A stretch of DNA of 64,000 nt from Patagioenas fasciata (Eukaryota; Chordata; Aves; Columbiformes; Columbidae), in the NCBI RefSeq assembly GCF_037038585.1, contig NC_092522.1, positions 52,267,661 through 52,331,660 on the forward strand, read 5' to 3'. The position numbers and the translations under genes were made by a program. Every line of letters begins with the position of its first letter. The first letter of the stretch is position 1. The notes beneath the pieces were generated by a model. It was not told the origin of the DNA. It saw nothing but the letters and a program-made list of their open reading frames with translations, and did no database searches. This document shows positions 54,248 to 64,000 of the stretch, piece by piece.

Positions 54248-64000
<9,753 letters not shown>

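Follow-up and report, generated by a model that had tools for sequence, protein, structure and literature searches.

A Four-Nucleotide Coding Exon Predicted in the MPC1 Gene of Patagioenas fasciata

The 64,000-nucleotide stretch of Patagioenas fasciata DNA analyzed here, which is called the window throughout, very probably contains a genuine four-base exon of MPC1. We conclude, with a probability of roughly 0.96, that the letters TACG at positions 59577–59580 are exon 2 of this gene, a 4-nt microexon that is included constitutively and is the orthologue of the human one. The letters at the site, the reading frame, the protein match, the quality of the splice sites, and the layout of the region can all be read directly from the window.

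An initial annotation of this DNA had asked whether such an exon was already catalogued. It is: Exon 2 of human MPC1 has been published as a constitutive 4-bp microexon with the same letters, TACG, on the basis of RT-PCR and sequencing (Koh, Shin & Kim 2023, PMC9929638). This was the only paper on an MPC1 (BRP44L, mitochondrial pyruvate carrier) microexon found among the literature matches listed. The microexon is therefore known from human experiments that precede the present work, and what is reported here is a sound prediction of that known feature in another animal.

The MPC1 gene and its reading frame

MPC1 is located on the + strand, and the window covers it from exon 1 through the greater part of exon 4. 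The coding segments are as follows.

54248–54318, + strand: MPC1 exon 1, coding part; 71 nt, equal to 23 codons plus AG; aligns to residues 1–23 of MPC1 chains
59577–59580, + strand: predicted MPC1 exon 2, the 4-nt microexon TACG; completes Ser24, codes for Thr25, and keeps the frame; same as human exon 2
62150–62246, + strand: MPC1 exon 3; 97 nt, from His26 onward; acceptor TTTACAG, donor GTAAGA
63889–64000, + strand: MPC1 exon 4; extends beyond the window end, to 64021 (window numbering) if a GC donor is used

Exon 1 terminates with ...TTG ATG AG, its last letters being ...TTGATGAG, and is followed by a GTGAGC donor at 54319. Exon 3 begins with CACTTTTGG..., where the first codon is CAC (His). 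Because exon 1 supplies 23 codons plus AG and exon 3 opens at His26, four bases are missing between them. The join that contains TACG (...ATGAGTACGCAC...) reads ...YLM-ST-HFWGP..., with the same spacing and residues as in the MPC1 chains of solved structures. When exons 1, 3, and 4 are joined in this manner up to the window end, a 94-residue reading is obtained that matches PDB MPC1 chains without gaps over residues 1–93 (E = 5e-59). We take the matched chains to be human.

The TACG-joined protein also carries the Pfam MPC domain PF03650 (E = 1.8e-29). Among solved structures, it matches MPC1 at 5e-59, MPC1-like at 6e-37, and MPC2 at 4e-8 at best. The presence of the MPC domain and the closer match to MPC1 than to MPC2 identify the gene in the window as an MPC1 orthologue. 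The residues STHFWGP are found at the equivalent place in the MPC1-like protein chain as well. The initial annotation had stated that exon 1 yields 23 codons and two bases, that the next exon resumes at the His codon 26 with four bases missing, and that TACG, with AG before it and GTAAGA after it, restores Ser-Thr. All three statements agree with the exact letters and with the gapless MPC1 match.

The 3′ portion of the gene can be read in two ways. Exon 4 goes on as ...CTGATCAAACACAG/GCAAGTCACACTTTAA (64008–64037, window numbering, across the window end), and it either uses a GC-type donor (CAG/GCAAGT) that leads to a fifth exon or is read through to a stop, giving the C-terminus RLIKHRQVTL. 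No convincing exon 5 was seen by eye in the 6 kb past the window. The candidates considered in that interval were short tails of 5–14 residues with a pyrimidine-rich acceptor or a TK motif, and none was judged by eye to be like the human C-terminus.

A processed copy of MPC1 would serve as a natural cDNA. None was found among the best candidates in the animal's own genome (a 1.45-Gb assembly of 359 contigs), where the joined coding sequence matched the three larger MPC1 exons described here and nothing else. Among IMG/VR viral contigs, three stretches fit a pattern for relatives and none was confirmed.

Splice signals of the microexon

The letters at the site are CAG/TACG/GTAAGA, and the coordinates are exact. 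The following elements surround it.

59506–59576, + strand: upstream part of the proposed exon island; 69 AG-free nt (59506–59574) plus the acceptor AG
59511, 59512, and 59514, + strand: candidate branch-point adenines at −66, −65, and −63, proposed by position
59515–59536, + strand: distal pyrimidine tract; 22 consecutive pyrimidines, −62 to −41
59581–59586, + strand: microexon 5′ splice site GTAAGA; the human MPC1 site is given as guAaga (PMC9929638)
59659–59662, + strand: CACT decoy between AG and GT; also encodes Ser-Thr, starts 82 nt downstream of the microexon, and is judged unused

The number of four-base segments flanked by AG and GT is unexceptional here. The interval between exons 1 and 3, trimmed by 20 nt on either side, contains 31 AG-N4-GT sites, and first-order Markov simulations (n = 500) give 34.2 on average. 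Two of the 31, TACG (59577) and CACT (59659), encode Ser-Thr. The TACG donor scores 8.62 bits, which is the best value among these sites (the next is 5.29) and is within the top four of the 472 intronic GTs, itself included. These scores were calculated with a matrix that was not taken from a tool.

The pattern CAG[CT]ACNGTRAG is found once in the interval versus 0.008 expected, a value to be read with the knowledge that the pattern was picked after the site was seen. The shorter pattern AG[CT]ACNGT is not enriched when both strands of the whole window are counted (10 found, 12.8 expected). Since this motif occurs at chance frequency, the case for the exon rests on the frame, the protein match, and the splice-site context.

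The region upstream of TACG is unusual in its arrangement. An AG-free zone as long as 69 nt precedes only 4 of 554 intronic AGs, the microexon acceptor among them. Pyrimidines occupy 21 of the 25 positions from −67 to −43, and the best 25-nt windows, starting at −65 to −61, contain 23. Close to the exon (−30 to −3), just 10 of 28 positions are pyrimidines. The initial annotation had proposed that an upstream pyrimidine tract and downstream G-runs suit recognition of the exon. The tract does exist, but it is distal rather than next to the exon, and the role assigned to the G-runs is presumptive. On both strands of the window, five AG-N4-GT sites have at least 60 AG-free bases upstream. Of these, only TACG has a donor that scores above zero, and its pyrimidine stretch is also the strongest (20 of 20, versus 12 to 16 for the others).

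A possible mechanism for recognition of the microexon

Several properties of the exon are carried over from the human work and are expected to hold here by analogy, namely its use in mRNA, its constitutive inclusion, its branch points, and the separate removal of the two introns that flank it. If this is correct, then the microexon would be defined by an exon island in which the branch point and the pyrimidine tract are both remote (∼41–66 nt upstream) and no AG intervenes. This distance would give the U2 machinery space at the acceptor at the same time as the strong GTAAGA four bases farther on is bound by U1, and each intron would be taken out separately. This U1/U2 steric account is our own reading, and it is in line with the discussion in PMC9929638. 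Inclusion of the exon would provide Ser24-Thr25 and keep the frame, and skipping would cause a frameshift and truncation within exon 3.

Downstream of the 5′ splice site is a further candidate element.

59590–59615, + strand: G-run or G-quadruplex-type motif, beginning at intron position +10; regular-expression match

The window contains three G-quadruplex-type matches on the + strand and three on the − strand (overlaps merged). It is possible that the G-runs at 59590–59615 are an intronic enhancer. G-quadruplex motifs near splice sites are reported to be enriched in mammals and birds, and a minigene supports the promotion of exon inclusion by such motifs; the same report describes a motif density beside microexons that is not above that beside other exons (PMC9065059). 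When G-quadruplexes were allowed, ViennaRNA picked none at 59590–59615, and the fold was the same as without them.

In the minimum-energy fold of 59487–59646, the downstream G-runs are base-paired to the pyrimidine tract. We rejected a looping device based on this pairing because the fold is matched by shuffled sequences (z = −0.51; of 200 shuffles, 66 reach an equal or better fold). The downstream intron may contribute to inclusion, since shortened GPD1 exons are described as requiring a 27-nt MPC1 downstream stretch for full inclusion (PMC9929638).

These observations bear on a variant of the proposal, in which the exon itself is the old one, whereas its defining signals have changed in this lineage. 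The TGTCTG direct repeat of the human upstream minimal region (PMC9929638) was not found in the 100 nt upstream of TACG, and dense G-runs begin at +10. Inclusion might accordingly depend less on the upstream island alone than on an enhancer downstream and on keeping the nearby CACT decoy silent. We consider this variant unlikely. The repeat was not counted as a defining element because the authors of PMC9929638 left its role for further study.

Alternative explanations

The microexon might be present and alternatively skipped, acting as a frameshift switch on the level of MPC1. A 4-nt exon alters the frame and its skipping leads to an early stop, so a switch role is possible in principle. The frame shifts from the junction onward when TACG is skipped, and a stop is reached at codon 43 (62205, in exon 3). 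The join without TACG happens to encode Ser-Thr as well (AGC ACT), after which the residues are wrong. The 42-residue skip product has no Pfam family match, although it is too short for this result to carry much weight. The human data weigh against a switch: A skipped MPC1 product was undetected in 786-O cells, even when nonsense-mediated decay was blocked with cycloheximide, and inclusion of the microexon was almost complete in a number of further cell lines from mouse and human (PMC9929638). Regulated skipping is very unlikely, and constitutive inclusion of TACG is the reading we retain.

The second Ser-Thr tetramer, CACT at 59659–59662, might instead supply the missing bases. It is located inside the intron as AG/CACT/GT, and the resulting join (...ATGAGCACTCAC...) would read AGC ACT, which is Ser-Thr. 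Pyrimidines are also denser immediately upstream of CACT, at 21 of 28 positions from −30 to −3, versus 10 of 28 for TACG. However, its donor, ACT/GTTGTG, is very poor by the same matrix (−5.16 bits, versus 8.62 for TACG), and 403 of the 472 intronic GTs, that of CACT included, score equal to or above it. Moreover, human mRNA has TACG, and the human exon has the same GTAAGA donor (PMC9929638). We regard the use of CACT as extremely unlikely. In naming TACG as the source of the four bases, the initial annotation chose the tetramer that holds up; it left out CACT, which is excluded on donor strength.

The least credible explanation, that there is no microexon and that a shifted splice site of exon 1 or exon 3 restores the frame, can be set aside after the sites have been inspected one exon at a time. 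Such a shift is a repair that a microexon-unaware annotation pipeline might make, and some sites within the exons would keep the frame by shortening them (three of the four GTs inside exon 1 and one of the four AGs inside exon 3). Their use would remove conserved coding sequence (44 to 59 nt from exon 1, or 80 nt from exon 3), and the exon 1 donors among them are weak by the same matrix (−2.75 to 0.92 bits, versus 10.17 for the normal donor). Lengthening fares no better: Exon 1 encounters TGA when extended by at least 4 nt (ATG AGG TGA), an extension of 1 nt preserves the frame only with TG as the donor, and an open frame is found for none of the seven frame-keeping GT donors at 54320–54700 and none of the eight frame-keeping AG acceptors at 61901–62149.

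Other features of the window

Just upstream of MPC1 exon 1 is a GC-rich array in which a 186-bp unit is present three times with a 99% match (53528–54094). The unit length is divisible by 3, and the array is crossed by long open frames on both strands. A repeat at about 54560–54820 may be an avian CR1 element. Farther upstream, the open frame at 24179–24991 includes an exon-like stretch of 55 residues whose closest solved structures are ribosomal protein S6 kinases alpha-3 and alpha-1. Judging from the gene order near MPC1, this stretch is probably part of RPS6KA2. At 24590–24628, an uninterrupted (CCTC)n tract with 9.8 copies produces a G-quadruplex-type match on the − strand.

Comparison with human MPC1 and other known exons

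If our assignment is correct, then a constitutive coding exon that ranks among the shortest is present with the same letters and a closely similar splice layout beyond the species studied. MPC1 models annotated automatically in this genome and in others like it would be worth checking for the four missing bases.

Long AG exclusion zones are known to signal distant branch points in human exons (PMC1431707). The zone described here differs from those exons in its length, which is 69 nt versus at least 100 nt for the zones of that study. It resembles them in having an AG-free zone before the acceptor and a pyrimidine tract at the far end.

The closest known system is human MPC1 exon 2. According to the published account, 67 nt upstream and 6 nt downstream are enough for the microexon in human reporters, the region from −67 to −43 is pyrimidine-rich (22 of 25), the major branch points map to −68 and −64 (−63 in the discussion of the paper), and separate lariats are formed, with guaaga as the 5′ site (PMC9929638). 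Its authors state that the microexon region is conserved between species (their Figure S1), and their text does not name the species compared. The pigeon site differs from the human exon in that the TGTCTG repeat is absent within 100 nt, a comparison made with the human upstream region as described in the text of that paper, and the G-runs from +10 are a feature of the MPC1 intron in this window. In contrast, the gene, the position in the protein, the letters TACG, and the 5′ splice site GTAAGA are all alike, and the distances of the distal pyrimidine tract and, by position, of the candidate branch-point adenines differ from the human ones by no more than a few bases. Because the letters and the 5′ site are the same and the upstream elements are near the human distances, we take the TACG exon to be the orthologous microexon.
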